From positions 1-51,839 of the forward strand of contig JAILNX010000028.1 in the NCBI GenBank assembly GCA_024691085.1: a DNA stretch of 51,839 bases, read 5' to 3'. This document shows, one piece after another, positions 2 to 50,996 of this stretch. Below the pieces are notes generated by a model. The model was not told the DNA's origin. It searched no databases and worked only from the letters and a program-made list of their open reading frames with translations. Position 1 is the stretch's first letter. Each line of letters begins with the position of its first letter. The translations under genes were made by a program, and so were the position numbers. This DNA is from Clostridiales bacterium (GTDB taxonomy: Bacteria; Bacillota; Clostridia; Christensenellales; CAG-138).

Positions 2-633
2 ACCGTTCCGGCTATTGAAATGGATATGACAAAGGACGAGGCCGCCATCGCGCTTGTGGACAGCAATCTGCACAGAGAACGGTTGCTTCCGAGCGAAAAG
101 GCGTTTGCGTATAAGCTCAAGGCGGAAGCAATGGAGCATCACGGCCGTCGATTAACTTCGGGACAAGTTGTCCCGAAGTCGGATGACAATCGAACGACAG
201 CGGTAATCGGTGAGCAAGCCGGAGAGAGCTACAAGACCGTTCAGCGCTATATCCGCCTCACACATCTTATCCCCGCGCTGCTGGATATGGTAGATGACCA
301 GCGTATCGCGTTCTCCGTCGGCGTGGAGCTGTCATTCCTTGACAGCGATATGCAGGCGGCGCTCATGATCGCGATCGATTTGAACGACTGCACACCATCA
401 TATGCCCAGGCCTGCCGTATGCACAAGGCCGTGAACGACGGCTCCATCAGCGAGGAAATGATCGATAAAATCATGGCCGAAGAAAAACCGAATCAGAAGG
501 AAAAGGTCAGTATTTCCGCCGACGAGCTTCGCGGTTACGTTCCTAACGGCACTCTGTCGGAAATGAAGGCATTTATCCGAAAAGCATGCGAGCACTATTC
601 GGATTATCTCAAGAAGAAGCGTGAGGAAGCAAG

Positions 634-5835: not shown

Positions 5836-5864
5836 TTGCTATATCCGCGGTACGTCTATATAAT
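5836..5864 (+). promoter_or_regulatory. rhaD promoter
   Basis: TTGCTA (5836-5841), 17 bases, then perfect TATAAT (5859-5864). It starts about 10 bases after the preceding terminator and lies inside the longer possible reading frame, which supports the internal start at 5899. Confidence 0.72.
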
Positions 5865-5898
5865 TGAAGAGAAAAGACAACGAAGGAGCCTTGAGAAC

Positions 5899-6708
5899 AT
5901 GGATATAATGAACGCAGATTTTCTCATCGAATTGATCCGCACGACGACCAATATGTACGCGCACGGCTGGGACGAAAGGAACGGCGGCAACATAAGCGTG
6001 CTCCTCGACGAAAAAGAGGCAGGGAAGTACCTCGATCTTACGAACGTAATCCGCACCATCCCGACGGGCTTCACGGCTAAGGAGCTTGACGGAAAGATAT
6101 TCCTTGTCACCGGCACGGGCAAGTATTTCAAGAACGTTCAGTACGATCCCGCGAAGAACCTGGGCGTAGTTCGCCTCGCGGAAAAGGGCGCGAAGGCGGA
6201 GCTTCTGTGGGGCCTTACCGACGGAGGGAGCTTCACCAGCGAGTTCCCCGCGCACATGATGAGCCACGTTTCGAGGCTCGCTGCGGATCCCGAAAGCCGC
6301 GTCGTCATGCACTGCCATCCGGCTAACCTCCTCGCCATGAGCTTCGTCCACAGCCTTGACGAGCGCGAGTTCACACGCACGCTCTGGAGAATGTGCACCG
6401 AGTGCGTGATCGTGTTCCCCGACGGCGTGAACGTGCTTCCGTGGATGCTCTGCGGCACGAACGAGATAGGGGAGGCGACAGCGGAGAAGATGAAGACCGC
6501 CCGCCTCTGCGTATGGGCGCAGCACGGAGTTTACGGCGCGGGACGAAGCCTCGACGAGACCTTTGGCCTTATCGAGACCGCCGAAAAAGCCGCCGAGATA
6601 TACCTTAAGATCGCTCATCTGCCCGTCCTCAACACCATCACGGACGGGGAGATGCGTCTTATTGAAAAGCGGTACGGAGTAAAGACCAGGGAGGGATATC
6701 TCGACTGA
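5899..6708 (+). CDS. rhaD: rhamnulose-1-phosphate aldolase (class II aldolase)
   Basis: The protein is 269 aa from ATG 5899, close to the usual RhaD length. It cleaves L-rhamnulose-1-phosphate to dihydroxyacetone phosphate and L-lactaldehyde. Landmarks are GWDERNGGNIS near the N-terminus, LVTGTGKYFKNV, GGSFTSEFPAHMMSH, VVMHCHPANLLAMSF (the HxH zinc ligands) and AQHGVYGAG near the C-terminus. AAGGAG at 5883-5888 fits this start; the frame opens at 5836 but that part overlaps the promoter. rhaA and rhaB are not adjacent, so the gene stands alone. No clear terminator follows. Confidence 0.9.
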   Translation: MDIMNADFLIELIRTTTNMYAHGWDERNGGNISVLLDEKEAGKYLDLTNVIRTIPTGFTAKELDGKIFLVTGTGKYFKNVQYDPAKNLGVVRLAEKGAKAELLWGLTDGGSFTSEFPAHMMSHVSRLAADPESRVVMHCHPANLLAMSFVHSLDEREFTRTLWRMCTECVIVFPDGVNVLPWMLCGTNEIGEATAEKMKTARLCVWAQHGVYGAGRSLDETFGLIETAEKAAEIYLKIAHLPVLNTITDGEMRLIEKRYGVKTREGYLD

Positions 6709-6774: not shown

Positions 6775-6803
6775 TTGACAAGCAGTCTTATATGTGATAT
6801 AAG
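6775..6803 (+). promoter_or_regulatory. promoter of the RiPP cassette
   Basis: TTGACA (6775-6780), 17 bases, then TATAAG (6798-6803). The start at 6827 follows about 23 bases later. The 118-base gap from rhaD is AT-rich. Confidence 0.75.
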
Positions 6804-6826
6804 ATTATATGTGGTGGTATGGGTAA

Positions 6827-7561
6827 ATGTCGACTGTCTACAGATTAAAACTTGCGGAAGTCCCGTTTGAACTTGTCTGCGTATCGGACGAGCACAACGA
6901 CGCATACGACAAGTACTTAACAGACGACGAGCCGCTGTTTTCTTTGACGACGGACAGGGAGACGCTCGAGCGTTGGCATGCCGGGCACATATCCTCCTGT
7001 ATAAAGATGGGGATAGAGCCCGATCCGCAGTATTTCATGCATGCCGAAGCCGCGATATTCTTTGCGGAGCTGTGCGGGCGTCTTACCGAATACGGCGTGT
7101 TCACGCTGCACGGATCGTCCCTGAGCCTTGACGGGGAAGGATACCTGTTTACCGCCCACAGGGACACGGGCAAAAGCACGCATGCCGCTCTCTGGCGCGA
7201 GGTCTTCGGCGATCGCTGCGTGATGATCAACGACGACAAGCCCCTTATAAGAAAGGCCGGCGGAGAGTTCAGGGTTTACGGTTCCCCCTTCTCGGGGAAG
7301 CATAAGCTTAACAACAATGTGTCCGCGCCGCTCAAGGCGATCGCGCAGATCGTAAGATCCGATACGAACCGCACGGAGCGTATAAGCTGCGAAGAAGCTT
7401 TCCCGCTTCTTATGACCCAGCTTTTCGGCCGTTTCGGCGGGGACGTCCTCACGAAAACGTCCGAATTCGCAAAGGATATTCTTAACGGCGTTCCGTTCTT
7501 TAAGCTGTACTGCAATATGGAACCCGACGCCGCAAAGGCCGCTTACGAAGGTCTGATCTAA
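6827..7561 (+). CDS. HPr kinase-like protein of a RiPP cassette
   Basis: This 244-aa protein has a degenerate P-loop at residues 110-118 (AHRDTGKST), a second acidic motif INDDKPLI at 134-141 and YGSPFSGK at 151-158, the signature set of HprK/PEP-carboxykinase-like kinases. It is not true HprK: it lacks that N-terminal domain and no HPr gene is near. Relatives of this size occur in lasso-peptide clusters such as paeninodin, where they phosphorylate the C-terminal serine of the precursor. Here it is the first gene, 58 bases ahead of the precursor. The start has only a weak GGTGG ribosome binding site. Phosphorylation of the peptide is inference; Ser53 is the serine nearest its C-terminus. Confidence 0.8.
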   Translation: MSTVYRLKLAEVPFELVCVSDEHNDAYDKYLTDDEPLFSLTTDRETLERWHAGHISSCIKMGIEPDPQYFMHAEAAIFFAELCGRLTEYGVFTLHGSSLSLDGEGYLFTAHRDTGKSTHAALWREVFGDRCVMINDDKPLIRKAGGEFRVYGSPFSGKHKLNNNVSAPLKAIAQIVRSDTNRTERISCEEAFPLLMTQLFGRFGGDVLTKTSEFAKDILNGVPFFKLYCNMEPDAAKAAYEGLI

Positions 7562-7619
7562 GTGTACGACAGGCTTGACCTGTTTACAGATATTTTTAAT
7601 ATTTGAAAGGAGCCTCAAA

Positions 7620-7790
7620 ATGGAAAAGTACAACGAGCCCAAAATGGAAGTCGTAAAGTTCGACGATAAGGCTGCCATCATGATGTTCGGCGAGGACGGA
7701 GACACCCGCGGCTGCATGCCCATTAATCTCCCCTGCCACTCTCAGTCCGGCAACCAGGACGCGAGCTACACCTGCTCTCCCAATAACTGA
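7620..7790 (+). CDS. putative RiPP precursor peptide, 56 aa, three cysteines
   Basis: The frame has an ATG at 7620 preceded by GAAAGGAG (7605-7612), the strongest ribosome binding site in the cassette, consistent with high-level synthesis. The leader-like part carries MEKYNEPKMEVVKF, in which Y4-x-x-P7-x-M9 resembles the YxxP leader motif bound by PqqD-like proteins of lasso systems. An acidic hinge GEDGDTRG (residues 24-31) precedes a likely core with Cys32, Cys39 and Cys52, including CMPINLPC, and ending TCSPNN. It has no transmembrane segment or signal peptide. The nature of the modification (thioether, epimerisation or other) cannot be read from the sequence. An upstream in-frame ATG at 7575 has no ribosome binding site. 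Confidence 0.78.
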   Translation: MEKYNEPKMEVVKFDDKAAIMMFGEDGDTRGCMPINLPCHSQSGNQDASYTCSPNN

Positions 7791-7819
7791 TCCGGATATT
7801 GAAATAACCGGAAAGACGA

Positions 7820-7841
7820 CTGCCTAATTGTATTCAGGTAG
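7820..7841 (+). promoter_or_regulatory. hairpin over the maturase translation start
   Basis: CTGCCT (7820-7825) can pair with AGGTAG (7836-7841), one G-U pair included, leaving a 10-base loop. AGGTAG is the only Shine-Dalgarno-like sequence ahead of the maturase ATG at 7846, so the hairpin could keep maturase levels below precursor levels. Confidence 0.4.
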
Positions 7842-7845
7842 CAGA

Positions 7846-9174
7846 ATGAAAGAACTCAATCCGAAGGATCCGAGGATCGATCAGATCCTGCCGGAAGGCG
7901 AATTGCGGCCGAACATCAGGTATATTCGGTCGCAATTTGTTATTCAGTATCATATCGAAGGTCAGCCTGTCCTTCTGAACGTATTCACGAAACAGTGCTT
8001 AATCACGGAACTTGAGGACCGTGCGTACGCTTCCGATGAGATATTGGGAAACGACGCCCTCACGGAACTTGTGAAGGGTTATTTCCTTGTTCCCGAGGAT
8101 TACGACGAGGTCGCGCGCTATATGAAAACGGTCGCGCTGATCAACGCCATTACGCACCGGGAAGGGCACGACCATTATACGGTCATCGTGACCTCTGCCT
8201 GCAACGCCCGCTGCGTGTACTGCTTCGAAGAGGGCGTGCAGTACAGGCGCATGAGCGACACGACTGCCGATCAGACCGTCGATTATATGCTGAGAACCAG
8301 GCGGGAAGGCTGTCCCGTCAGGATCACCTGGTTCGGCGGGGAACCGCTTATGGGAACTGCGGTGATCGACCGCATTTGCCGGAAGATCGCCGAAGCAGGA
8401 GTCGATTACGAAACCGATATGATCTCGAATGGCAGCCTTGTGACGGAAGAGATCGTCGAAAGGATGAAGGGGCTTTGGAAGCTCGGCATTATCCAGATCA
8501 CCATGGATGGAAACGAAAAGGCGTATATTGAAAGAAAAAGATTCTATCAATACGACGACACGTATATGAAAACCATCCGTGGCATCGAACTGATCGCCGC
8601 AAGCGGGATCAGGGTGGACGTAAGGGTCAACGTAGATTACGACAACATCGACACTTTCCCCGAGCTCCTCGACGATCTTGCCCGGATGATCGAGCATAAG
8701 GAAAAGGTTTGCGTGTATTTAAGCCCTCTCTATCAGGTCCGAGACTCCGAAAACGATCTTGCCATCTGGAAGAGGATAATCGATTATTCGCCGCTTATCC
8801 GCGAGAAGGGCTTTACCCCGCTCACGATGGGCGGATTCTATCTCGTTCTCAGGAACAAGGGCTGCAAGGCACAGGATAAGAACGCCGTTATCGATCAGGA
8901 CGGCATACTCTATCAGTGCCAGCACTACCACAAGGAGAGCATCGTCGGGAACGTCGTCGACGGCATAACGGACGAGGCGGCGCTGAGGGAGTTCACCCGA
9001 ACCGACCGCGTGCTCCCGAAATGCGCGAAATGCCCGTTCCTTCCGGACTGCACGACGTTCATCTCCTGCCCCATCAAGGACCGTCACTGCAGGGAACGCT
9101 ATACGCTGATGACCGAGAACGGGATAAGGAACATGCTGAAAAGAAAAGAGCCTGCCGCTTTGGCGGAATGCTGA
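7846..9174 (+). CDS. radical SAM/SPASM peptide maturase
   Basis: The protein is 442 aa from ATG 7846; a TTG at 7828 would add 6 residues but sits in a hairpin loop. The N-terminal ~105 residues look like the winged-helix peptide-binding domain common in these maturases. The radical SAM core has CNARCVYC with Cys119, Cys123 and Cys126 ligating the SAM cluster, and GGEP at 164-167. The C-terminal SPASM domain has Cys340, 358, 393, 396, 402, 408 and 415, enough for two auxiliary 4Fe-4S clusters, as in thioether-forming enzymes. Its substrate is most likely the adjacent 56-aa peptide. Which bond it makes is unknown. It is not SCIFF maturase by context, because the peptide does not have the six-cysteine pattern. 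Confidence 0.9.
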   Translation: MKELNPKDPRIDQILPEGELRPNIRYIRSQFVIQYHIEGQPVLLNVFTKQCLITELEDRAYASDEILGNDALTELVKGYFLVPEDYDEVARYMKTVALINAITHREGHDHYTVIVTSACNARCVYCFEEGVQYRRMSDTTADQTVDYMLRTRREGCPVRITWFGGEPLMGTAVIDRICRKIAEAGVDYETDMISNGSLVTEEIVERMKGLWKLGIIQITMDGNEKAYIERKRFYQYDDTYMKTIRGIELIAASGIRVDVRVNVDYDNIDTFPELLDDLARMIEHKEKVCVYLSPLYQVRDSENDLAIWKRIIDYSPLIREKGFTPLTMGGFYLVLRNKGCKAQDKNAVIDQDGILYQCQHYHKESIVGNVVDGITDEAALREFTRTDRVLPKCAKCPFLPDCTTFISCPIKDRHCRERYTLMTENGIRNMLKRKEPAALAEC

Positions 9175-9199
9175 TGAATACAAGGATGGTGAACCCCGA

Positions 9200-9460
9200 A
9201 TGAAACTCAAAAACGATTTTGTCACCCAGACCATTGATGACACGCAGTTCCTCGTCGCCGTCGGCGGAAAGACGTTCAACGGCATCGTCAGGAGCAATCC
9301 GACCGCCGCGTTCATCGTCGATATGCTCAGGGAAGGGACCACGAAGGAGGAGATCGTCGACGCGATGTGCGAAAAATACGACGCTCCCCGCGAGGTCATC
9401 TCGAAAGACGTCGACAAGGTGCTGGACACTCTGCGCGGTATTGACGCCATAGAAGAATGA
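9200..9460 (+). CDS. PqqD-like RiPP recognition protein
   Basis: The protein is 86 aa. The pattern FVTQTIDDTQFLVAVGG, FNGIVRSNPTAAFIVDML and TTKEEIVDAMCEKYDAP is typical of PqqD-family winged-helix recognition elements, which hold the leader peptide for the modifying enzyme. It lies 25 bases after the maturase and its stop overlaps the next start (ATGA). It is separate from, and additional to, the N-terminal domain of the maturase. Confidence 0.88.
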   Translation: MKLKNDFVTQTIDDTQFLVAVGGKTFNGIVRSNPTAAFIVDMLREGTTKEEIVDAMCEKYDAPREVISKDVDKVLDTLRGIDAIEE

Positions 9461-9888
9461 CGAGCTTCGAAGAAGTTCTTAAAAGCGGAAAGCCCCTGGT
9501 CTATAACGTCAAGGGCTGCAGCATGCGCCCCATGCTGTTCCAGGACAGGGATATCGTCATAATCGAAAAACCCGCGGCACGCCTTAAAAAATACGACGTC
9601 GCCTTCTATAAGACGGGCGAAAAGTACATCCTTCACCGCGTGGTCCGCGTCGGGAAAGGGTACTACATCACCCGCGGCGACAACAATCTGAACAACGAAA
9701 AGATCCCCGATTCCGCCGTTCTCGGCGTGCTGACGGGATTCGTAAGGAACGGGGAAGACCGTTCCGTCACGGACGCGGAGTACGTCTCCTATTATAAAAG
9801 AAGGGTGCGCGAGTACCCCCTGCGGTTCGTCTACCGCAAGGCGAAAGCGCTCGCCCGCCGGGTAAAAAGGGGTTTATTCGGCGGATAG
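9457..9888 (+). CDS. S24/S26-family serine peptidase of the RiPP cassette
   Basis: The protein is 143 aa. The nucleophile motif is GCSMRPML (Ser22 in SM) and the second conserved block is YILHRVVRV, followed by YYITRGDNN. This Ser/His arrangement is that of archaeal-type and sporulation-type signal peptidases rather than the Ser/Lys type of LepB. No N-terminal membrane anchor is visible; the C-terminus is strongly basic (RKAKALARRVKRG). In context it is a candidate leader protease for the precursor. Translation is coupled to the PqqD-like gene by ATGA. It is the last gene before a terminator, and the cassette encodes no exporter. Confidence 0.85.
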   Translation: MTSFEEVLKSGKPLVYNVKGCSMRPMLFQDRDIVIIEKPAARLKKYDVAFYKTGEKYILHRVVRVGKGYYITRGDNNLNNEKIPDSAVLGVLTGFVRNGEDRSVTDAEYVSYYKRRVREYPLRFVYRKAKALARRVKRGLFGG

Positions 9889-9898
9889 ATCTTCCGCG

Positions 9899-9966
9899 AA
9901 CCGATCCGTAAACCGATACGAGAATACGCCGGCCGGCCGATACGGTGCGGACGGTTTTTTTCTTTT
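9899..9966 (+). terminator. terminator of the RiPP cassette
   Basis: An imperfect inverted repeat (AACCG-TCCG-ACCG against CGGT-CGGA-CGGTT) encloses a GGCCGGCC core and runs into a long T-rich tract at 9954-9966. Confidence 0.65.
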
Positions 9967-9974
9967 CTTTCCGA

Positions 9975-10003
9975 TTGACTATCGGACAATAATACTGTAT
10001 ATT
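9975..10003 (+). promoter_or_regulatory. promoter of the oxidoreductase-hyp operon
   Basis: TTGACT (9975-9980), 17 bases, then TATATT (9998-10003). Confidence 0.7.
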
Positions 10004-10066
10004 ATTATCGGAACTATGTTGTTCAGAGCATATTTCGTCAAATCAATTAAAGATGGGGGCAAACGC

Positions 10067-12889
10067 ATGGGCAGGAGCATTGAGGAATGGAAGATCGGCG
10101 ATCCGATGATCAACGAGCGGGACTATTGGCAGGATCCTGCCTACGTTCCTGAGGATCCCGAGAAGGAGAAGCTGGTCAAGAAACTGGCGGAGATGATCAC
10201 CGACCGCGTCAAGAAAAAGCTGCTCCACAAGATAAACAACCGCGATCCCGAATACTGGATACTCGACATGATCCTCAACAAGGAGCAGGTCAAATTCCTT
10301 TTGAACTTCAAGAAGACCAGGGTGCCATATTCCGTGCCCGAGCTTGCCGAGATGAACGGCATGAGTCTCGAGGACACGCAGAAGATGATAGAGCGCCTGC
10401 GCTGGATCGGCGTCATCGAGCAGAACCGCGCGAAGACCGAGGATAAGCACCTCCAGTACGAGCTGCCCATATTCGTTCCCGGCAGCGCCGAGTTCATGAT
10501 GATGCAGGACAGGCTGACGGACGAGTTCCCCCAGCTTGCCACCTTCTTCAACCTTATGACGCAGATACCCCTCGCGGGACTCACACAGCTCGTTCCGCCC
10601 GGCGGCGCGGGCATCGGCATGCACGTCATACCCGTCGAAAAGGCGATCTCTGCCGAGAGTCAAAGCGTGCCCGTCGAGCATCTTTCCCGCTGGATAGATA
10701 TGTACGATAAGTTCGGCATCTCCGAGTGTTCCTGCCGCAAGCAGCAGACGATGCGCGGCGAGGGCTCGGGCGAGATACGCGGCGATTACTGCATCGGTCT
10801 GGGCGACATGGCGGAGTACATGGACGACCGCGGCATCGGGCATTACATCACAAAGGAAGAGGTGTACGAGATCCTCGAGCGCGCGGAGCGTCACGGCTAC
10901 GTGCACCAGATCACCAATATCGACGGCGAAGACAAGATCGTCGCCATCTGCAACTGCGCTCCCGGCGTCTGCAACGCGCTCCGCACGTCCCAGCTCTTCA
11001 ACACCCCGAACATGTCCGCCTCCGCTTACCGCGCGCACGTCGAAAAGGAGAAGTGCGTCGCCTGCGGCAAGTGTGTGGAGGTCTGTCCCGTCGGAGCCGC
11101 GAAGCTCGGTCAGAAGCTCTGCAGGAAGGACGGCAGCGAGGTCGTTTACCCCAGGACGCAGCTCCCGAACGGGCGCAAATGGGGCGCGGATAAATGGAAT
11201 TACAACTACCGCGAGGACGCGAAGATAAACTGCTACGAATCCGGCACCGCTCCCTGCAAGACCGCCTGCCCCGTGCACCTCTCCGTGCAGGGCTATATCA
11301 AGATGGCGGCCGAGGGACGCTATGACGAGGCACTTAAACTCATCAAGCAGGACAACCCCCTGCCCATGATCTGCGGCGCGATCTGCAACCGCCGCTGCGA
11401 GGACGCCTGCACGAGGGGCACGGTTGACGCGCCTCTCGCCATCGACGAGATCAAAAAGTTTATCGCCGCCCGCGATCTTGAAAAAGAAGACCGCTATATC
11501 CCGCTCTGCGAGAAGCACGACGGCGGCATGTGGGGCGACGAATTCAAGGTCGCGGTCATCGGCTCCGGCCCCGCAGGCCTTTCCGCCGCTTACTTCTTAA
11601 GGCGCGACGGCTATCCCGTCACCGTATTCGAAAAGGAACAGCGCGCGGGCGGTATGCTCGAGCACGGCATTCCCTCCTATCGTCTCGAGAAGGACGTCAT
11701 GCAGGCCGAGATCGACGTCATTAAAGAAATGGGCGTCGAGTTTAAGTTCGGCACAGAGGTCGGAAAGGACGTCACGATCGACGAGCTGAGGAAGCAGGGC
11801 TATAAGGCCTTCTTCATAGCGATAGGCATGCAGGGCGGCCGCCTTGCCGGCGTTACCGGCGAGGACGCCGAGGGCGTTGAGACGGGCGTCAGCTTCTTAA
11901 GACGCATCAATCTCGACCACTCCGTACGCCTTTCGGGCAAGACCGTAGTCGTCGGCGGCGGAAACGTCGCGATAGACGTAGCGGGCAGCGCGCTCCGCGC
12001 GGGCTCCGACGAGGTAACGATGCTCTGCCTTGAACAGAGGGACGAGATGCCTGCGGCCAAGGACGAGGTCAGAGAAGCCCTTGAGGACGGCGTGAAGCTG
12101 ATGAACGGCTGGGGCCCCAAGGAGGTCATCTCCGAGAACGGGCGCCTAACCGCAGTAGTGTTCAAGCGCTGCACGCGCGTTTATGACGAAAACCACCGCT
12201 TCGCTCCCGAATACGACGAGAACGATACCGTCACATTCCACTGCGACAATCTGCTTCTCTCCATCGGTCAGAGCGTCGTATGGGGCGACCTTCTTAAGGG
12301 CACCAAGGTCGAGCTTAAGCCCAACGGCACCGTGATCGCCGATCCCGTCACCCGCCAGACCGCCGAGCCCGACATATTCGTCGGCGGGGACGTGTTCACC
12401 GGCGCGAGGTTCGCGATCGACGCTATCGCCGGCGGACGCGAGGGCGCGGTTTCCATCAACCGCTTCGTGCATCCGGGCAACAGCCTCACCATCGCGCGCG
12501 ATCTAAGGGAGTTCAGGGAGCTCGACAAATCGGATATCGCGGATCCCGCGTCCATGGAGAGCTTCGACAATTCTCCCCGCCAGATCCCCGGTAAGAAGGC
12601 GGGCGCCGCGAGCGCGACGTTCGAGGACTTAAGGCTCACCTTTACCGAGGAACAGGTCAGGAAAGAGGCGAAGCGCTGCCTCGGCTGCGGCGCGACGACG
12701 GTCGATACCAACCGCTGCGTCGGCTGCGGACTCTGCACCACGAAGTGCGAGTTCGACGCCATCCACTTAACGAGGGACGTGCCCGCCGCGAGCAAGATGT
12801 ATAAGTCCGAGCAGAAGGTCAAGGCGCTTCTGCCCTACGCCGCCAAGCGCGCCGTAAAGATAGTATTCAAGAAGACGGAAGATGAATAA
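10067..12889 (+). CDS. multi-domain Fe-S/FAD oxidoreductase, GltD-like
   Basis: The protein is 940 aa from ATG 10067; the frame is open from 10016 but that part has no ribosome binding site. In order: an N-terminal helical/winged region; CSCRKQQ at about 221 and CNCAPGVC at about 295; a ferredoxin CVACGKCVEVCPVG at about 330; the GltD-type Fe-S domain with PCKTACPVH at about 394 and ICGAICNRRCEDAC; an FAD site VIGSGPAGLSAAY at about 496; an NAD(P)H site VVGGGNVAIDVAG at about 627; and a C-terminal CLGCG / CVGCGLCTTKC ferredoxin at about 871-895. It should shuttle electrons between NAD(P)H and ferredoxin-like partners; the substrate is unknown. It overlaps hypB by 8 bases, so it is in one operon with nickel-handling genes. 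Confidence 0.85.
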   Translation: MGRSIEEWKIGDPMINERDYWQDPAYVPEDPEKEKLVKKLAEMITDRVKKKLLHKINNRDPEYWILDMILNKEQVKFLLNFKKTRVPYSVPELAEMNGMSLEDTQKMIERLRWIGVIEQNRAKTEDKHLQYELPIFVPGSAEFMMMQDRLTDEFPQLATFFNLMTQIPLAGLTQLVPPGGAGIGMHVIPVEKAISAESQSVPVEHLSRWIDMYDKFGISECSCRKQQTMRGEGSGEIRGDYCIGLGDMAEYMDDRGIGHYITKEEVYEILERAERHGYVHQITNIDGEDKIVAICNCAPGVCNALRTSQLFNTPNMSASAYRAHVEKEKCVACGKCVEVCPVGAAKLGQKLCRKDGSEVVYPRTQLPNGRKWGADKWNYNYREDAKINCYESGTAPCKTACPVHLSVQGYIKMAAEGRYDEALKLIKQDNPLPMICGAICNRRCEDACTRGTVDAPLAIDEIKKFIAARDLEKEDRYIPLCEKHDGGMWGDEFKVAVIGSGPAGLSAAYFLRRDGYPVTVFEKEQRAGGMLEHGIPSYRLEKDVMQAEIDVIKEMGVEFKFGTEVGKDVTIDELRKQGYKAFFIAIGMQGGRLAGVTGEDAEGVETGVSFLRRINLDHSVRLSGKTVVVGGGNVAIDVAGSALRAGSDEVTMLCLEQRDEMPAAKDEVREALEDGVKLMNGWGPKEVISENGRLTAVVFKRCTRVYDENHRFAPEYDENDTVTFHCDNLLLSIGQSVVWGDLLKGTKVELKPNGTVIADPVTRQTAEPDIFVGGDVFTGARFAIDAIAGGREGAVSINRFVHPGNSLTIARDLREFRELDKSDIADPASMESFDNSPRQIPGKKAGAASATFEDLRLTFTEEQVRKEAKRCLGCGATTVDTNRCVGCGLCTTKCEFDAIHLTRDVPAASKMYKSEQKVKALLPYAAKRAVKIVFKKTEDE

Positions 12890-30888: not shown

Positions 30889-32025
30889 TTATGCCTCCTT
30901 AAAAAAGTCAATGAATTCATGGGCTTTTTCCGTTTCGCCCAGTATGCCGTATTCCTTTGAGAACATGATCATTTCGATGTTCATTTCATCGCCCGCGCGG
31001 TGTATGAGGTTCGCGTGCGCCTTCCTTGTTACGCTCTCGAGCGTGCGTTTTTCAAGCGCGGGATCCGCATCCCGGAGGAGCCTCACCGCCTCGTCGCAGG
31101 CGACGCAGCCGAGGATCTCACCTAAAAGCTCCGGGCTCGCGCCTTCCTTGCCCGCGTGCGCGGCGAGTATCTCCATGCGGCAGTCGCCGTACTTCGAGTG
31201 CGTGTTCATCATGTTGCCGGCGAGCTTTACCAGCTTGCCGATATGCCCGATGAGGAGCGCGTTTCTGAAGCCGAGCCCGCGGCAGAAATCAATGGAATCT
31301 CCGATGAAATTGGACGTCTGCACCGCGATTTCGGGATCTATGCCTAGGCTCGATTTAATAAACTCCGCGCCGTAATTGCCGGGCGTGAGAAGAACGTTTT
31401 CATTTCCGAGCGCCCGCCTTTGGGTAAGCTCCGTCTTAATGGTCTCCACGAGCGCCTGCTCGCTCATCGGCTCGACGATCCCGGTGGTGCCTATGATCGA
31501 AATGCCTCCGACGATTCCGAGGCGCGGATTGAACGTTTTTTTCGCAAGCTCGATCCCCGCGGGGCAGGATATGATCACCGAGACGCCGCCTTCACAGCCG
31601 AAAAGGCTCATGACTTCGCCGACGTTCTCCGCGATCATTCTGCGCGGAACGGAGTTTATCGCCGCGTTGCCGACGGGCTGATCGAGCCCCGGTTTCGTGA
31701 CCCGGCCGACGCCGACTCCGCCGTCGATCGTCACGCCGGGCGTGTCAGAATAACGCGCCTCCGCATAGACGAGCGCCCCGTCGGTAACGTCCGGATCGTC
31801 GCCCGCGTCCTTGCGGACGGCGCAGGAGACCGCGCTTTCGCCGATCGAGATGTCCTCGACCGCAAGCGTGAGAGCGATCCCCTTAGGCGTTTCGAGGGTG
31901 ATGCTCTCCTTGCGTTTTCCGGACAGAAGCATCCACGCCGCGGCCTTTGCCGCCGCAGCAGCGCAGGAGCCCGTCGTGTAGCCGAGCCTGAGCTTTTTGC
32001 CGTCTTTTTCTATAAATTCGTTCAT
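30889..32025 (-). CDS. cbiD: cobalt-precorrin-5B C1-methyltransferase
   Basis: The protein is 378 aa. The N-terminal LRLGYTTGSCAAAAAKAA and internal GNYGAEFIKSSLGI and IGKLVKLAGNMMNTHSKYGD (in part: AGNMMNTHSKYGD) identify CbiD. It methylates C1 and exists only in the anaerobic route, which confirms the pathway type. It overlaps cbiC by 4 bases. Confidence 0.95.
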   Translation of the reverse strand: MNEFIEKDGKKLRLGYTTGSCAAAAAKAAAWMLLSGKRKESITLETPKGIALTLAVEDISIGESAVSCAVRKDAGDDPDVTDGALVYAEARYSDTPGVTIDGGVGVGRVTKPGLDQPVGNAAINSVPRRMIAENVGEVMSLFGCEGGVSVIISCPAGIELAKKTFNPRLGIVGGISIIGTTGIVEPMSEQALVETIKTELTQRRALGNENVLLTPGNYGAEFIKSSLGIDPEIAVQTSNFIGDSIDFCRGLGFRNALLIGHIGKLVKLAGNMMNTHSKYGDCRMEILAAHAGKEGASPELLGEILGCVACDEAVRLLRDADPALEKRTLESVTRKAHANLIHRAGDEMNIEMIMFSKEYGILGETEKAHEFIDFFKEA

Positions 32026-32651
32026 CTTGTCAGTTTGTACATCAGCGCGTTGACGATCGCCGCCGCCACGTTCGAGCCTCCCTTTCTGCCGCGCGCGACG
32101 ATGTGCGGCACGCCGGACGCGATGATGAGCTCCTTCGATTCAACGACGTTTACAAAGCCTACCGGCACGCCGATGATGAGCTTCGGCGCGAGCTTTCCTT
32201 CCTTTATCAGCCCGTCCAGAGCGATAAGCGCGGTCGGGGCGTTGCCGATGGCGAAGATAAGGGGCTTTTCGAGCCCCGCCGCCTTTTCCATCGAAACGAT
32301 GGCGCGCGTGACGCCGCGCGATTTGGCCTCCTCCGCGACGTCCTCGTCGGACATAAAGCAGTACGCTTCGCAGCCGAGCTTATTTAGGGCAGCTTTGTTT
32401 ATGCCCGACTTCGCCATCTGCGTGTCGGTGACGATGCCGCAGCCTTCTTTCAGCGCTTCAAGGCCGATCCCGACCGCGTTTTCGGAGAAAACGAGGTTGT
32501 CGACGTATTCGAAATCCGCGGTCGTGTGGATGACGCGCTTCACGACCGCCTCGTTTTCAGGGGGCAGTACGACGCCTTTTTCCAAAAGAATGCCTGAAAT
32601 TATTTCAAAGCTGCGCCTCTCGATATCCATCGGCTTAATGTTTTCGATCAT
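32022..32651 (-). CDS. cbiC: (cobalt-)precorrin-8 methylmutase
   Basis: The protein is 209 aa. MDIERRSFEII, VIHTTADFEY (catalytic His in the TTADF block), VGFVNVVESKE and GRKGGSNVAAAIVNAL match CbiC/CobH. It moves the C11 methyl to C12, giving cobyrinate. It overlaps cbiA by 17 bases. Confidence 0.95.
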   Translation of the reverse strand: MIENIKPMDIERRSFEIISGILLEKGVVLPPENEAVVKRVIHTTADFEYVDNLVFSENAVGIGLEALKEGCGIVTDTQMAKSGINKAALNKLGCEAYCFMSDEDVAEEAKSRGVTRAIVSMEKAAGLEKPLIFAIGNAPTALIALDGLIKEGKLAPKLIIGVPVGFVNVVESKELIIASGVPHIVARGRKGGSNVAAAIVNALMYKLTR

Positions 32652-33999
32652 TGTGTTTCTCCTTTATACAGGCCCTTGCGAAGTTCTCCGCAAAGCGGGG
32701 ATCGGCAAGAAAATGAAAGTGCGGGAATCCCGCGTAGAGCGTGTCTGTCGCGAAAACGCAGTCCCAGCTGCGCCCGTCCGCCTTTTCTGCGGTGAAGGAA
32801 TCGCCGGTCAAATCGCAGTCCCACCTGTGGAACTCATGCGCGGGGATCGTATCACCCTTTTCGCAGAGCATATTATCCTTTTTCGCGGTCAGAGTGACGT
32901 AGCCGAATCGCGTGAGCCTGCCCGTGTCGAAGGCGGTTCCTCTTATGAAACCAACGGCGGGATGACCCGCGACCGCTTCCGTGAGGTACATGAACCCGCC
33001 GCACTCCGCGACGCAGGGAAGCCCGTTTTCAAGCGCAGTCCTTATGCTTTTCAGCATGGTCTCGTTCCCGGCAAGCTCCTTTGCGTTTAGCTCGGGGTAT
33101 CCGCCGCCGAGGTAGAGGCCGTGTATGCCATCAGGCAGTTTTTCGTCGGCGAGCGGGCTGAACGGAACGAGCTCCGCGCCCATCGCGGAAAGCGCCGCAA
33201 GGCTGTCCTCATAGTAAAAACAGAACGCCCTGTCCCGCGCGACGGCAATGCGGAAGGGCTCGAGCCTTTCCGTGATCACCGGCTCATACGAAAGCTCCGG
33301 CGCGGATGCGGCAAGCGCGATGATCCCGTCGAGATCAAGGCTCTTTTCCGCCTGTTCCGCAAGACGGGCGAGCTTTTGTTTAAGATCCGTCACCTCGTCA
33401 GCGGTGATGAGCCCTAAATGGCGAGAGCCGAGCTCGCATTCCGGCATCTTCGGCATGAAGCCGAGCGGCCTTATACCGATGCGGGCTTCGATCAGCGGCG
33501 CAAGGGAGGAATAGATCTTTTCCGTGCAGTTGTTGAGGATAACGCCGCGGATGAGGCTGTCCGGCTCAAACTCTGAAAAACCCTTGACCGCCGCGAGAAC
33601 GGAAAGCGAGGCGCCCTTCGCGTTCACCGTGAGGATCACAGGCGTCGCTGTCTTTTTCGCAGCCTCGTACGTTGAGGCGCGGGAGGTCGCGCCGAGGCCG
33701 TCGTAATAGCCCATCACGCCCTCGATAACGGTGAGCTCCTTCTCCGCGCCGTGCGAGGCAAGCAGGAAGCGGAGCGTGTTTTCATCAAAAAAGAAGGGAT
33801 CGAGGTTGGTGCTCGGCACTCCCAGGGCGCTCCTGTGGAACATCGGGTCGATGTAATCCGGCCCGCATTTGGCGGAGGCCAATGCCGCTCCGCGCTTATT
33901 GAGCGCGGCGAGCACGGCAAGCGTTACCGTGGTCTTTCCACAGCCGGAATTCGTGCCCGCGATCAGCACTCTGTTGACTTTTTCAACACATTTATTCAT
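32635..33999 (-). CDS. cbiA: cobyrinate a,c-diamide synthase
   Basis: The protein is 454 aa. The ATP-dependent amidase domain has IAGTNSGCGKTTVTLAV and KCGPDYIDPMFHR. The C-terminal glutaminase has GLYLGGGYPEL and CVAECGGFMYL (nucleophile Cys), with HFHFLADPRFAENF at the end. It amidates the a and c acetate side chains. It overlaps the upstream ABC ATPase gene by 8 bases. Confidence 0.95.
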   Translation of the reverse strand: MNKCVEKVNRVLIAGTNSGCGKTTVTLAVLAALNKRGAALASAKCGPDYIDPMFHRSALGVPSTNLDPFFFDENTLRFLLASHGAEKELTVIEGVMGYYDGLGATSRASTYEAAKKTATPVILTVNAKGASLSVLAAVKGFSEFEPDSLIRGVILNNCTEKIYSSLAPLIEARIGIRPLGFMPKMPECELGSRHLGLITADEVTDLKQKLARLAEQAEKSLDLDGIIALAASAPELSYEPVITERLEPFRIAVARDRAFCFYYEDSLAALSAMGAELVPFSPLADEKLPDGIHGLYLGGGYPELNAKELAGNETMLKSIRTALENGLPCVAECGGFMYLTEAVAGHPAVGFIRGTAFDTGRLTRFGYVTLTAKKDNMLCEKGDTIPAHEFHRWDCDLTGDSFTAEKADGRSWDCVFATDTLYAGFPHFHFLADPRFAENFARACIKEKHNDRKH

Positions 34000-35089
34000 C
34001 CTTCAAAAGCCCCTTTTCACGGGCAAGCGCGAGGAGCCGTCCGTTCGCTTCGTTGAGAGCGCGTACCGGCGTTCCCGCGTCGGCGACGGCTTTGCACGAG
34101 AGCATCAGTTCCTTCGCTTTTTCATAGAGTTCTTCGCTTATCGGTTCGAACGCGGGAGCGATCACGGAAGCCGAGGCGAGGCTTTTCGCCACCCGCGCGT
34201 CCACGTCGTTCTCGAAGAGTATGCCCGCCGCGAACGGCGTTCTTTCCCGCTGCAGAGCGCGGAAAACGCTTATGCCGCAGCCGCCGCCGGCGACGACGAA
34301 CACCTCAGGCTTACCCTGCGGTCTTTCAAGCTCCACGCTGCCGAAGAGCGGATCGTAGCTTCCGCTGTTCATATCGTAAAGCGATTCAATGGGAAGCGCC
34401 TTCAGCACCTCCTCCGGCGTGCCGAAGGCGGCTATTGTCTCGCCCTTGACGCAGAGCAGAAGATCGGAGACCTTTGCCGCAAGGTCGATCTCGTGCAGGC
34501 TCATGATGATCGTCACGTCCTTTTCCAGCGCGAGCCGGCGCAGTATGGATAATAACTCCGTCTTGTGGCGGATGTCGAGGTACGCCGTCGGCTCGTCGAG
34601 GATCAGAAGCTCCGGCATTTGGGCGAACGCGCGGGCGAGCACGACGCGCTGCTTCTGCCCGTCGGAGAGGGTGGAAAACTCCTTATCCGCAAGCGCTTCG
34701 GCGTTGACCGAGGCGAGCGCGTCGGAGACTATGCTCTCGTCCTCGGGCGTCAGCCTGCCTATCATATTCGTGTAGGGGTACCGCCCGAAGGCGACTATCT
34801 CCCTCGCGGTGTAGAGCTCGGGCCGTATGCGCTCGGTGAGCACTACCGCCTGCTTTTTGGCAAGCTCCTTCTGCGGCATCGTGAAAAGCTGCGCGCCGTC
34901 CACCGAAGCCGCGCCGCGTATCGCCGCTATCTGACGGGAAAGCGTTTTTAAGATAGTGGTTTTTCCGGAGCCGTTCGGGCCGATCAGCGTAAGTATTTTG
35001 CCCTTGCCGAGCGCAAGGTCGATATCATGGATCAGCGCGCTTCCGCCGTAGCCGACGGAAAGGCCGTGCGTTTCGAAATAATTATCCAT
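33992..35089 (-). CDS. btuD: cobalamin ABC transporter ATPase with C-terminal extension
   Basis: The protein is 365 aa, about 105 longer than FecE/BtuD-type ATPases. The ATPase part (1 to about 255) has Walker A GPNGSGKTT (37-45), signature LSDGQKQRVVLARA, Walker B LLILDEPTAYLD and the H-loop region IIMSLHEIDLA. The extension from about 258 begins PEVFVVAGGGCGISVFRAL and ends LALAREKGLLKDE; it looks like a small alpha/beta domain and is not a normal part of the transporter. It pairs with the permease 3 bases upstream and with BtuF of the plus operon. Confidence 0.9.
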   Translation of the reverse strand: MDNYFETHGLSVGYGGSALIHDIDLALGKGKILTLIGPNGSGKTTILKTLSRQIAAIRGAASVDGAQLFTMPQKELAKKQAVVLTERIRPELYTAREIVAFGRYPYTNMIGRLTPEDESIVSDALASVNAEALADKEFSTLSDGQKQRVVLARAFAQMPELLILDEPTAYLDIRHKTELLSILRRLALEKDVTIIMSLHEIDLAAKVSDLLLCVKGETIAAFGTPEEVLKALPIESLYDMNSGSYDPLFGSVELERPQGKPEVFVVAGGGCGISVFRALQRERTPFAAGILFENDVDARVAKSLASASVIAPAFEPISEELYEKAKELMLSCKAVADAGTPVRALNEANGRLLALAREKGLLKDE

Positions 35090-35092
35090 GCG

Positions 35093-36130
35093 CTACACCT
35101 CCTGCGAGCGGCGTTTCGATATCATCATCCATATGACGACCGGCGCGCCGAAGACGCTCGTCACCGTGCCGATATTGAGCTCGGTGGGGGAGAACACCGT
35201 CCTCGCGATAAGATCGCAGAAGACGCAGAACACGGCGCCGCACAGGAAGACAGTCGGTATGACGAGTATCGGCCGGGAGCTTCTTAAGAGCCGCCTCGTA
35301 ATATGCGGCACGGCGATGCCGACGAACGAAATCGGCCCGGCGAGCGCGGTAACGCAGGCGGAAAGCAGACTCGAGAGCAGTATGAGCGCGGTGCGGAAAG
35401 GCTTTACCGCGACGCCCATGCTCTTCGCATAACCTTCGCCGAGGGCGTACGCGCCCATGGGCTTTGATAAAAGCCACGCGGCGATCGCGGCGGGGAAGCA
35501 GACGGCCGCGGCGGTCAGAACGCTGTCCCAGCCCTTGCCGGAGAACGTGCCCATCGACCAGTATTTGAGGTTAACGATGTCCTGCTCGCTCGCGAAGGTC
35601 ACCGCCATATCGGTGACGGCGGAGCAAATATAGCCGACCATTATGCCGACGACGAGCAGCATCGCCATATTCTTGACCTTCTGGGAAAAGAGAAGCACGA
35701 TAGCCGTGATCATAAGCGACCCGATGAACGCGGCGAGGATCATGGTCCACGGGCTCATCGCGATCCTTCCGGCGAGGAATATCATCGTGATGCCGACGAT
35801 CATCTTGGCTCCGGAGGAGATGCCGAGTACGAACGGTCCCGCGATGGGATTGCGGAAAAATGACTGAAGCAGGAAGCCGGAAACGGAGAGCGCTCCGCCG
35901 AGTATCGCGGCTAGGAGCATTCGCGGCATTCTGATATTGAATACGATGAGGCTTTCGGTGGAGGCGTTCCGTCCGTCTTTCAACAGGCCCAGTATCTCGG
36001 CGGGGCTCATGCGGACCGAGCCGACCGCGAGATTCACGGCGAGTGCGATCACCAGCAGCAGGAGAAGCAGGCAGAGTATGATCAGGAACCTGCCCGCGCC
36101 GCGCCGCGCCGTATTATCCTTCTTTTCCAT
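35093..36130 (-). CDS. btuC: cobalamin/corrinoid ABC transporter permease (FecCD family)
   Basis: From ATG 36130, with CGGAGG upstream, the protein is 346 aa; the longer frame runs into the riboswitch leader. About ten membrane spans are visible. Landmarks are RMPRMLLAAILGGALSVSGFLLQ, NPIAGPFVLGISSGAK and GPISFVGIAVPHITRRL. It forms the membrane channel with the adjacent ATPase. It is the first gene of the riboswitch-controlled minus operon. Confidence 0.93.
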   Translation of the reverse strand: MEKKDNTARRGAGRFLIILCLLLLLLVIALAVNLAVGSVRMSPAEILGLLKDGRNASTESLIVFNIRMPRMLLAAILGGALSVSGFLLQSFFRNPIAGPFVLGISSGAKMIVGITMIFLAGRIAMSPWTMILAAFIGSLMITAIVLLFSQKVKNMAMLLVVGIMVGYICSAVTDMAVTFASEQDIVNLKYWSMGTFSGKGWDSVLTAAAVCFPAAIAAWLLSKPMGAYALGEGYAKSMGVAVKPFRTALILLSSLLSACVTALAGPISFVGIAVPHITRRLLRSSRPILVIPTVFLCGAVFCVFCDLIARTVFSPTELNIGTVTSVFGAPVVIWMMISKRRSQEV

Positions 36131-36148
36131 CAAGACCTCCGAACGAAA

Positions 36149-36181
36149 CAAAAACCGCGCAAGCCCGAAAGCTTGCGCGGC
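36149..36181 (-). terminator. leader terminator of the minus-strand cobalamin operon
   Basis: CCGCGCAAGC pairs with GCTTGCGCGG around a TTTCGG loop and runs into TTTTT on the minus strand, 18 bases before the btuC start. It lies between the aptamer and the first gene, so it is the expected off-switch. A second hairpin CTTTGCC/GGCAAAG (36210-36234) lies between aptamer and terminator. Confidence 0.85.
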
Positions 36182-36243
36182 CGTTTTCCCGCAGCAAATA
36201 AACAAACGCCTTTGCCTTCATTCCTTCGGCAAAGCCCTTTCTT

Positions 36244-36425
36244 CAAGCAGGTCTTCCGGCTCGCGCATCATCGGCCGGGGCGCGCCTTCTCGGAACGAGT
36301 TCCAATGGCCGACTTTCGTCCTGCACCCTGCCTCCGCGCTTACGGCGGCGGTTCCGCCCGGGATTCTCACCCGGTTGTCTATTCTCTCCCGGGAGCAGCG
36401 TTAGCTTCCGGGAGCACTTGAAGTA
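36244..36425 (-). promoter_or_regulatory. cobalamin riboswitch (controls btuC to cobQ)
   Basis: Read on the minus strand: GGTGAGAATCCCGGGCGG, then CCGCCGCCGTAA at the B12-box position (36340-36353), GACGAAAGTCGGCCATTGG, and the terminal GCCGGAAGACCTGCTT (36245-36260). This order is the conserved cobalamin aptamer core. The B12 box reads GCCGCCG rather than the usual GCCACTG. The downstream terminator implies transcription attenuation when adenosylcobalamin or a related corrinoid binds. Confidence 0.93.
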
Positions 36426-36442
36426 AAAAATCTGCTTATGAT

Positions 36443-36471
36443 ATTTTATTATTCCGCCGCACTTTTGTCAA
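36443..36471 (-). promoter_or_regulatory. promoter of the minus-strand cobalamin operon
   Basis: On the minus strand TTGACA (36466-36471), 17 bases, then TAAAAT (36443-36448), leading straight into the riboswitch. Confidence 0.8.
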
Positions 36472-36518
36472 GCGCGACAGAATAAAAGAAAATATATTGA
36501 AAAGCGGCAAAAACCGTG

Positions 36519-36547
36519 TTGACAAAATCTTCGGCTTGCGGTATGCT
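36519..36547 (+). promoter_or_regulatory. promoter of the plus-strand cobalamin operon
   Basis: TTGACA (36519-36524), 17 bases, then TATGCT (36542-36547), leading into the second riboswitch. About 47 bases separate it from the divergent promoter. Confidence 0.8.
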
Positions 36548-36561
36548 CTTTGTAATCGAAT

Positions 36562-36747
36562 AAGCGTTTGAGTGCGCTGCATCGCCTTCGGGCCTGCAGC
36601 GAGAATAGGGAATTCGGTGAGAATCCGGAACGGTACCGCCACTGTAAGCGCTAAAAGCCGCCGTAGACGAAAGTCGGTCATTGAGGGAAACCTTGAGAAG
36701 GCTGTGCGTGCTTTGCTTGATGCGTAAGTCAGGAGACCTGCTTGGAT
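36562..36747 (+). promoter_or_regulatory. cobalamin riboswitch (controls cbiK to btuF)
   Basis: GGTGAGAATCCGGAACGG, then the B12 box ACCGCCACTGT (36635-36645), AGACGAAAGTCGGTCATTG and GTCAGGAGACCTGC (36729-36742) are the conserved aptamer blocks in the right order. No terminator with a T tract follows before cbiK; the expression platform appears to act on translation instead. Confidence 0.94.
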
Positions 36748-36855
36748 GTGTGCTTTTGGTGCGCTCCCGGTATTTGGGGCGTCATCGTTATGTGTTTGTG
36801 CATATATCCGGCAGGGGCGAAAGCTTCTGCCTTTTGATTTCGCCCGAATGCTTAT

Positions 36856-36915
36856 TCCTAAGGAGCACCCAAGCCCCTTAAGAGGCTGGAAATAAAGCTA
36901 TATTACCTTAGGAGG
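36856..36915 (+). promoter_or_regulatory. likely ribosome-binding-site sequestering helix of cbiK leader
   Basis: TCCTAAGG (36856-36863) is exactly complementary to CCTTAGGA (36906-36913), which overlaps the cbiK Shine-Dalgarno GGAGG (36911-36915). An 8-bp helix would hide the ribosome binding site. Ligand control by the upstream aptamer is inference. Confidence 0.55.
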
Positions 36916-36921
36916 AACCAA

Positions 36922-50047: not shown

Positions 50048-50066
50048 TCAAAAGGAATAGATCATT

Positions 50067-50996
50067 TTGAAAAAAACGATCGGTCTATTATTGGTGCTGG
50101 CAATGACGTTTGCCCTGGCGGGCGCGGCTCTTGCCTCGGGATCCGTTCCGACCTTCGTTATCTCCGAAGAGACGGCGGCTCCCGGGGAGGAGGTCCGTGT
50201 GACCGTCAGCATAAAAAACAATACAGCCGTTGCCAGCATCCAGATCGAACCGCAGTTCGATCACACCTTCCTCGAGTGGATAGGCGTCGAACAGGGCGAT
50301 TATACCGGAACATGGGATCCGAGGATAGACAGAGGATTTCTGAGATGGTTCGGTCCGTCCGGACATAACGTGAGCTTTGACGGCGTATTTGCGACTCTGA
50401 TCTTCAAAGTAAGTGAAAGCGCCCCGTCGGGCGATCTGACGGTTACGGTCACCTATGATGAGGACAACGTGTTCAATCAGGATGATGATAACGTCTACTT
50501 CGCTGTCCGGCCCGGAAAGGTGACGGTCTCGGGAGGCGGAACTCCTTCCGAAACGCCGACGCCTTCGCCGTCCGAACAGACGCCGGAAAACAGCCCGACT
50601 CCGACGCCGGGTCAGCCGACTTCCTCTCCGGAAAACAGCCCGACTCCGGCGCCCGGTCAGCCGACCCCGGCGCAGACACAGAGACCGGAAACAAGCCCGA
50701 CGCCTGCGGCGACCGCAGAAGCAACAGTGCCCTCGGGCTCCGTAGGACCGGGACCGACTCAGACTCCAGAGGGCTCGGACGATCCCTTGAAAACTCCTGA
50801 AGCTTCTGAAACTCCGGAAGGCAGGCCGACCGACAGCGCAGACGAACCCACTGCCGAGCCTGACAAGACCGAAGAACCGCATACGCAGCAGGAAACGAAA
50901 GGCCTTACGTGGCTCTGGATACTGCTCGGAGCGGCAGCGGCCTTGGGCGCAGGGGCGGCAATAGTCGCCGCAGCCGGAAAGGCCAAAAAGAAATAA
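50067..50996 (+). CDS. membrane-anchored cohesin protein
   Basis: The protein is 309 aa from a TTG with AAAGGA upstream, 19 bases after the dockerin gene. A signal peptide (1-25) is followed by a cohesin domain at about 28-158: VPTFVISEETAAPGEEVRVTV, VASIQIEPQFDHTFLEW, GVFATLIFKVSESAPSG and VRPGKVTVSGG. A Pro/Thr/Ser linker (about 160-275) contains a twice-repeated PENSPTPxPGQPT unit. A C-terminal membrane helix (WLWILLGAAAALGAGAAIVA) ends KAKKK. It should display one cohesin at the outer face and hold the upstream dockerin protein. No LPxTG or S-layer motif is present. Confidence 0.92.
   Translation: MKKTIGLLLVLAMTFALAGAALASGSVPTFVISEETAAPGEEVRVTVSIKNNTAVASIQIEPQFDHTFLEWIGVEQGDYTGTWDPRIDRGFLRWFGPSGHNVSFDGVFATLIFKVSESAPSGDLTVTVTYDEDNVFNQDDDNVYFAVRPGKVTVSGGGTPSETPTPSPSEQTPENSPTPTPGQPTSSPENSPTPAPGQPTPAQTQRPETSPTPAATAEATVPSGSVGPGPTQTPEGSDDPLKTPEASETPEGRPTDSADEPTAEPDKTEEPHTQQETKGLTWLWILLGAAAALGAGAAIVAAAGKAKKK

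Follow-up and report, generated by a model that had tools for sequence, protein, structure and literature searches.

Contig C19 (51,839 bases, called the window below in its full length) of a gut bacterium of rumen type from the Clostridiales, with a 1.98-Mb genome in 38 contigs, carries five consecutive genes on the forward strand, encoding an HPrK-like kinase, a short cysteine-bearing peptide, a radical S-adenosylmethionine (SAM) maturase of the SPASM type, a PqqD-like protein and an S24/S26 peptidase. This order and the gene boundaries, proposed in a preliminary description made from the sequence, have been confirmed by the reading frames and by family matches. The genes, their conserved residues, an architecture that recurs in other genomes, a division of the peptides into leader and core and a group of related products establish a real cassette of the type producing ribosomally synthesized and post-translationally modified peptides (RiPPs). 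We consider it likely, with a probability of about 0.6, that the product of the cassette is a peptide modified by the radical SAM enzyme on a handling module of the kind known from linear polyphosphorylated peptides (LPPs). The handling kit itself is already published, and the novelty lies in the radical SAM/SPASM enzyme that accompanies it. The features of the locus, all on the forward strand, are as follows:

6775..6803, +: sigma-70-type promoter TTGACA-17-TATAAG, read by eye, with hexamers TTGACA (6775-6780) and TATAAG (6798-6803) and a 17-nt gap
6827..7561, +: HPrK-like kinase of the ScmC/HprK-related superfamily, 244 aa, assigned by family matches and conserved residues
7154..7180, +: kinase P-loop A110-HRDTGKS-T118, degenerate, with RD in place of SG
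7607..7612, +: ribosome binding site AAGGAG of the precursor, the strongest of the five cassette genes
7620..7790, +: RiPP precursor peptide, 56 aa, three cysteines
7629..7640, +: YNEP (residues 4-7), the YxxP recognition motif of the leader, a role taken from PMC13381572 and PMC12710340
7728..7775, +: conserved core L37-P-C-H-S-Q-S-G-N-Q-D-A-S-Y-T-C52, of the LPxHG..GN..C group
7846..9174, +: radical SAM/SPASM maturase, 442 aa
9200..9460, +: free PqqD-like RiPP recognition element (RRE), 86 aa, whose closest solved relative is the lasso RRE TbiB1
9457..9888, +: soluble S26 peptidase of SipW/archaeal type, 143 aa, overlapping the PqqD gene by 4 nt

Genes of the cassette

The cysteines already pointed out in the maturase, a CX3CX2C motif (C119-x3-C123-x2-C126) and seven SPASM cysteines (C340, C358, C393, C396, C402, C408 and C415), are invariant in all 34 aligned rows, comprising the window and 33 relatives. 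The enzyme matches PF04055 (2.5e-17), its SPASM score of 21.1 bits falls just under the cut-off of 21.5, and the closest solved chain is 5wgg (1.5e-23), which we take to be the thioether enzyme CteB. Among NCBIfam models, TIGR04463, geopeptide and Clo7bot give 120, 118 and 104 bits, below cut-offs of 525, 400 and 600, and all 12 aligned members of the maturase family point to these same models and to CefB. A cysteine at the very C-terminus is found in the four closest aligned maturases, those of the window (C442, 9172-9174), L016, L017 and L018.

Taken alone, the window kinase has no Pfam match, and NCBIfam gives TIGR04249 (ScmC) weakly (0.018; 14.4 bits for a cut-off of 125). Across the family, TIGR04249 matches 28 of 28 aligned HPrK members (best 1.2e-7) and TIGR04352, HprK-related kinase A, matches 26 of 28, in each case under the curated cut-off wherever one is shown. 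A comparison with solved structures by sequence returned weak PEPCK P-loop matches only (best 0.042). The PqqD-like RRE matches PF05402 (2.9e-16) and TbiB1 (1.6e-8). The protease, rightly called signal-peptidase-like in the preliminary description, belongs to the SipW/archaeal type (PF00717, 1.6e-5; TIGR02228, 1e-10, below cut-off); its Ser22 and His60 are invariant in 16 aligned rows, and the highest hydropathy over 19 residues is 0.59, which indicates a protein without a membrane span. The cysteine-bearing peptide does have the best ribosome binding site, as had been noted. Of the 46 precursors compared with NCBIfam and Pfam, none gives a good family match, and the window precursor matches no NCBIfam model, including the six-cysteine precursor model TIGR03973.

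Recurrence of the architecture and the precursor peptides

Relatives of the maturase were collected by a scan of named genomes, from which the best 80 of 387 (76 loci) were used. By title, most of these come from metagenome-assembled genomes (MAGs) of rumen or gut Clostridia and a few from Planctomycetota, Bacteroidales or Coriobacteriaceae; the named isolates include Sarcina sp. DSM 11001 and Ruminococcus flavefaciens YL228. Viral contigs gave 31 loci, at 33 percent identity at best. With L078 set aside for want of a scorable maturase frame, 75 loci could be scored, and near the maturase there is a leader-matching frame in 63, PqqD in 50, HPrK in 27 and S26 in 26. One further precursor, at L033, begins with GTG within a longer frame; it was missed by the pipeline and found by hand. 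When restricted to the 49 loci with full flanks, which leaves out 26 of the 75, the corresponding counts are 42, 34, 18 and 18, and each locus with HPrK or with S26 has PqqD as well. The full set of five occurs in 10 of the 49, in the window order in three (five if multiple precursors are allowed). The conserved peptide frame and the co-occurrence of the five families, both suggested at the outset as checks on the cassette, have thus been found. That many MAGs of gut Clostridia have the same handling kit beside SPASM maturases suggests a shared chassis for two chemistries.

A wider set of precursors was sought by counting genomes with the maturase: 12 of 396 in the order, 3 of 391 in the class, 1 of 16 in each of two small families and 29 of 103 in the window's own family. 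The 29 are largely the genomes of the named collection, and no wider independent set resulted.

The handling module has also been found away from any maturase. The window genome holds three HPrK and three PqqD genes, in the C19 cassette and on contigs C32 and C16. On C32 lies a second cassette, with two precursors, HPrK, a maturase 43 percent identical to that of the window and PqqD, without S26, while C16 carries an HPrK-PqqD-S26-ATP-binding cassette (ABC) transporter module (L031, 6811-10091) in which neither maturase nor precursor was seen. The preliminary description was right that the cassette itself has no exporter; an ABC exporter does occur in the related module on C16. In 20 chosen HPrK regions from other genomes of the family, HPrK, PqqD and S26 occur together in 11 and a maturase in none; Pfam checks of the ABC gene covered C16 and L240. 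Among the 103 family genomes, 50 have leader-like peptides, 58 have HPrK and 29 have the maturase. HPrK is present in 46 of the 50 with such peptides and in 12 of the 53 without (p 2.6e-13, relatedness not controlled), and the same holds for the 74 that have no maturase (23 of 25 versus 9 of 49; p 7e-10, again without control for relatedness). This tie between YxxP peptides and HPrK, which persists without the maturase, directly raises the question of what the kinase does.

A leader model applied to 17 loci matched 22 small frames, compared with none among equally many shuffled ones (1831 frames). Sixteen of them follow a frame of 250 aa or more at a distance of 2 to 36 nt. Of 21 such large frames, 11 pass a crude test of N-terminal hydropathy, one of the 11 resembling a flavin adenine dinucleotide enzyme, and at least five of the others are truncated at the edge of the fetched stretch. 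Two loci, L240 and L295, show a leader-like peptide followed by HPrK and PqqD. Four matched peptides belong to the window's own genome, three on C32 (L232, 5999-6115, 7237-7353 and 9111-9227, reverse strand) and one on C3 (L233, 6944-7093, reverse strand). They are Cys-free and acidic, with a YxxP leader and an ending in DW or EW, have no maturase nearby and lie 16-20 nt downstream of frames of 352, 517, 511 and 728 aa.

The precursor table comprises 86 unique peptides, four loci having been omitted as copies of other records, with the leader consensus M-x-x-Y-x-x-[PA]-x-[ML]-E. In the 69 that could be divided into leader and core (17 could not), cysteine makes up 2 of 1582 leader residues and 166 of 1716 core residues, and 68 cores bear at least one. 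The number of core cysteines ranges from 0 to 7, so the three cysteines noted in the window precursor are not a trait of the family. Two further arrangements were observed: L019 (6396-12668) has four tandem maturase genes with four precursors of the form MKKYxTPEMDVESLANDVVTAS, and at the HPrK/maturase loci L021 (7017-7337) and L023 (6703-6945) a small neighbour without YxxP, with the leader KxYVRAEQxLINIAxDSVLFTxSSG and a repeat-like Cys or Pro/Thr tail, represents a second type of precursor.

The window core belongs to a group defined by LPxHG..GN..C, which is common to eight distinct precursors (window, L020, L033, L052, the second of L057, L058, L074 and L153). Beyond the start and K3, the residues Y4, E10, G31, P38, H40, G44 and C52 are invariant in the eight, all of which lie beside HPrK. 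In the 86-row table the kinase neighbours 7 of 7 LPxHG precursors and 25 of 79 others (p 6e-4, relatedness not controlled). The similarity of the window core to the other seven was equalled by 2 of 5000 shuffles. When all other precursors were ranked against the window core, with L033 outside the ranked set, six LPxHG members fell in the top nine, with two Cys-rich peptides above. A profile of the eight found nine strong matches in the 103 family genomes (E under 1e-13), in the same genomes. In the maturase tree, six of the eight corresponding enzymes fall in two neighbouring lineages and two elsewhere; retention of the core across diverged maturases suits a product with a fixed job, and the conservation of LPxHG suggests that the rumen flora contains a defined molecule of this kind.

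A different regularity was detected across the family, in which an acidic residue follows a core cysteine at a fixed distance. In 66 de-duplicated cores with 163 cysteines, D or E occurs at +3 in 60 cases against 24.1 expected (z 8.6; 0 of 2000 shuffles), while other offsets from -8 to +10 give z at or below 2.8 (+9), with no enrichment at +4 (18 against 23.1). Harder de-duplication to 31 cores retained the effect (25 against 10.5; z 5.0). The motif, CX2[DE], is found in 28 of 63 Cys-bearing cores, where 20.5 are expected (47 of 2000 shuffles). These spacings hint that many maturases of the family may join cysteine to the acidic residue three positions on, and CX2[DE] offers a testable Cys/acidic rule for a maturase family unnamed in the NCBIfam and Pfam models used. 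As a rule for the window itself it was rejected, given that the window core is without the motif and that the 15 later cores taken alone are not significant (8 against 4.9).

In its genomic setting, the cassette has a G+C content of 0.536, compared with 0.572 for the contig, and is preceded by a rhamnulose-1-phosphate aldolase gene (5836-6708; TIGR02624, 397 bits) and followed by a 957-aa flavin/Fe-S oxidoreductase (10016-12889). Of the promoter and terminator first attributed to it, the promoter stands, as read by eye; the automatic scan, which accepts only T as the sixth base of the second hexamer, did not list TATAAG. The terminator found no support, since the scan shows no site near 9930-9966 and the 9885-9975 segment folds no better than shuffles (z 0.26). 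At 1e-40 the maturase occurs in one of 13 genomes of the genus, the window's own. The downstream gene is conserved in the genus, but in five genomes examined its neighbours include neither rhaD nor the cassette genes, so that no clean empty site was found. Elsewhere in the window, a 3205-aa protein that combines List_Bact repeats with Big_2 and a type I dockerin precedes a cohesin protein (40430-50996), and CbiD, CobB/CobQ-type and CbiK genes form part of a cobalamin pathway (30892-38097).

Proposed pathway and alternative explanations

In the pathway that we infer, the PqqD-like protein (9200-9460) would bind the leader at Y4-N-E-P7, and the 5'-deoxyadenosyl radical of the SPASM enzyme would link a core cysteine (C52, perhaps C32 and C39) to a neighbouring residue, the link being most likely a thioether. 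While bound to the RRE, the S26 peptidase may then remove the leader by cutting close to its hydrophobic segment AAIMMF/G (residues 18-24), and the product with its LPxHG..GN..C segment would exit through an exporter in trans, for which the C16 ABC transporter is the best candidate.

Several points weigh against this pathway. Export through C16 is a guess, and no conserved cut site is readable in the window precursor. The maturase reaches no curated NCBIfam cut-off, even for its best model, TIGR04463. The window core carries I, Q and N at +3 of its cysteines and N, S and N at +4, and Cys-free cores do occur (e.g. L041, L081 and the first of L076). The group of eight was picked partly by a window-derived motif, which makes the figure of 2 in 5000 optimistic; against L033 alone, the similarity was reached by 1241 of 5000 shuffles. 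A single clade of LPxHG maturases was also rejected (approximately unbiased test, p-AU 0.0036).

A broader account, which we put forward only tentatively, would have one economy of YxxP-leader peptides, in which a module of HPrK, RRE, SipW-type peptidase and ABC transporter serves several kinds of precursor: the radical-SAM-linked LPxHG type, the CX2[DE] peptides and the Cys-free acidic peptides whose genes directly follow those of large secreted proteins. In such an economy the radical SAM enzyme would be a plug-in, and the LPxHG product a conserved, function-bearing molecule, as opposed to a variable bacteriocin.

It is rather unlikely that the product is a ranthipeptide of the PapB or SCIFF type, with a thioether from Cys to Asp or Glu. 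The match to PapB (NF047865, 3.7e-29), the position of 5wgg as closest solved chain and the excess of acidic residues at +3 are consistent with such a product. However, the scores for PapB (102 of 340 bits) and for the SCIFF model TIGR03974 (47 of 425 bits) fall short of their cut-offs, no NCBIfam model recognizes the precursor, and the natural PapB motif is reported as CX3D (PMC9413430), whereas the family spacing is CX2[DE], found in fewer than half of the Cys-bearing cores and lacking in that of the window.

To much the same low degree it could be supposed that no cysteine is cross-linked in the window, the cysteines serving as ligands or forming disulfides while the enzyme makes a C-C link or an epimerisation on the LPxHG segment. 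Pro38, His40 and Gly44 are conserved equally with Cys52 in the group of eight and some family cores have no cysteine, but the near-restriction of cysteine to the cores, 68 of 69 of which bear it, argues against this.

Less probable again is that the cassette is an LPP system proper, in which polyphosphorylation of the precursor by HPrK would proceed as in LppA, with the radical SAM enzyme in a secondary role as a tailoring enzyme. The kinase, RRE, SipW-type peptidase and YxxP leader are all LPP-like, and serine occurs at Y+18 in 0.42 and at Y+19 in 0.40 of the anchorable precursors, adjoining the LPP phosphosite, which was placed at Y+18 by our own count from the published consensus. The motif described for a phosphorylating lasso kinase is H-G-G-G-K-S-D-D (PMC10368454), of which H95, G115, K116, S117, D136 and D137 are kept in the window; its first Gly is Ala across the family, and its second is Asp in the window and Gly in the 33 other readable rows. 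The window alone, among 34 rows, deviates from SGTGK[ST] in its P-loop, which reads HRDTGKST, and its precursor has MMFGE at Y+17..21, without serine at the LPP phospho-acceptor position. Nor is the serine commoner beside HPrK, an expectation that was rejected: it is rarer there, in 23 of 32 precursors with HPrK compared with 42 of 44 without (p 0.0065), one HPrK row in this count being mis-anchored and in fact carrying Ser. The cassette also has no nucleoside triphosphate (NTP) transferase. At L033 and L052 the P-loop is SGTGK and the precursor has the serine. Taken together, the degenerate P-loop and the Ser-less precursor weaken the case for phosphorylation in the window, so that the proposal of a phosphorylated product, doubtful on these residues, is the weakest that had been made for the cassette, and the role of the window kinase is probably reduced or altered.

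That ordinary genes have merely come together by chance, or that the assembly is decaying, is highly improbable: the single occurrence among the 13 genus genomes, the differing upstream synteny of the next gene in five genus genomes and the degenerate P-loop would fit it, but the frames are intact, the catalytic residues invariant and the architecture repeated in many MAGs.

Comparison with known systems

The SynChlorMet cassette (TIGR04248-04251) comprises the HPrK-like ScmC, the PqqD-like ScmD and two SPASM enzymes, and thus resembles the present cassette in bringing an HPrK-like protein, PqqD and a SPASM enzyme together. Here there is a single maturase with a recurring precursor, and the ScmC match lies far below cut-off. 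Nonetheless, the matches of all 28 HPrK rows to ScmC indicate that the HPrK/PqqD/SPASM trio has precedent, although no paper was found under the SynChlorMet name.

Phosphorylated lasso peptides, as described for Bsf (PMC10368454) and for rumen lasso clusters (PMC7533575), share HPrK, an RRE and a YxxP leader with the cassette, and with the window the kinase motif residues H, G, K, S, D and D (PMC10368454). Rumen lasso clusters are reported often to contain HPr kinase and PqqD (PMC7533575), and discrete lasso-type RREs have been seen by RRE-Finder beside radical SAM enzymes (PMC7470986). The lasso macrolactam cyclase and B2 peptidase are absent from the cassette and three scanned neighbours. 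A joining of two toolkits, as first proposed, is upheld insofar as a kinase, RRE and peptidase set accompanies a SPASM maturase; the partner is the LPP module and not a lasso kit with parts swapped, since the set matches LPP and the family also has it without a radical SAM gene.

Ranthipeptides (PapB/freyrasin, SCIFF/CteB) have a maturase of the SPASM family and a Cys-bearing core, and, like part of the family, an acidic residue at a fixed distance from cysteine. They differ in that distance, and the cassette has in addition a free RRE, a kinase and an S26 peptidase. The Hungate1000 survey defines ranthipeptides through TIGR03973 (PMC13289728), a model without a match in the window precursor. 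The nearest named models remain those of the TIGR04463, geopeptide and Clo7bot maturases, below their cut-offs. As to whether the cassette corresponds to a characterised RiPP class, no curated family cut-off is reached, while the handling kit is that of LPPs.

LPPs were first described in 2026, with polyphosphorylation as the primary modification (PMC13381572, Nat Commun 2026). Their clusters contain a signal peptidase I (SpI)-like peptidase, a discrete RRE, an HprK-like kinase, an NTP transferase and an MsbA-like transporter. The leader follows YxxPxVLxHQxIxFETxxS, and the RRE binds YxxP and presents the leader to the SpI-like peptidase, whose cleavage is RRE-dependent, while the kinase adds several phosphates to core Ser3 (PMC13381572). 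The word "radical" does not occur in the text of PMC13381572, and among the open-licence papers searched none was found describing an LPP-type kit combined with radical SAM. The NTP transferase was not seen among the five cassette genes and three scanned neighbours, the rest of the genome being unsearched, nor in the otherwise LPP-like C16 module; the MsbA-like exporter is likewise absent from the cassette and tested neighbours, with a related one in C16. LPP clusters and the cassette have in common an HprK-like kinase, a discrete RRE, a soluble Ser-His peptidase of the SipW/SpI type, the lack of a lasso cyclase and a YxxP leader with a variable C-terminus, and to this set the cassette adds a radical SAM/SPASM maturase and Cys-rich cores.

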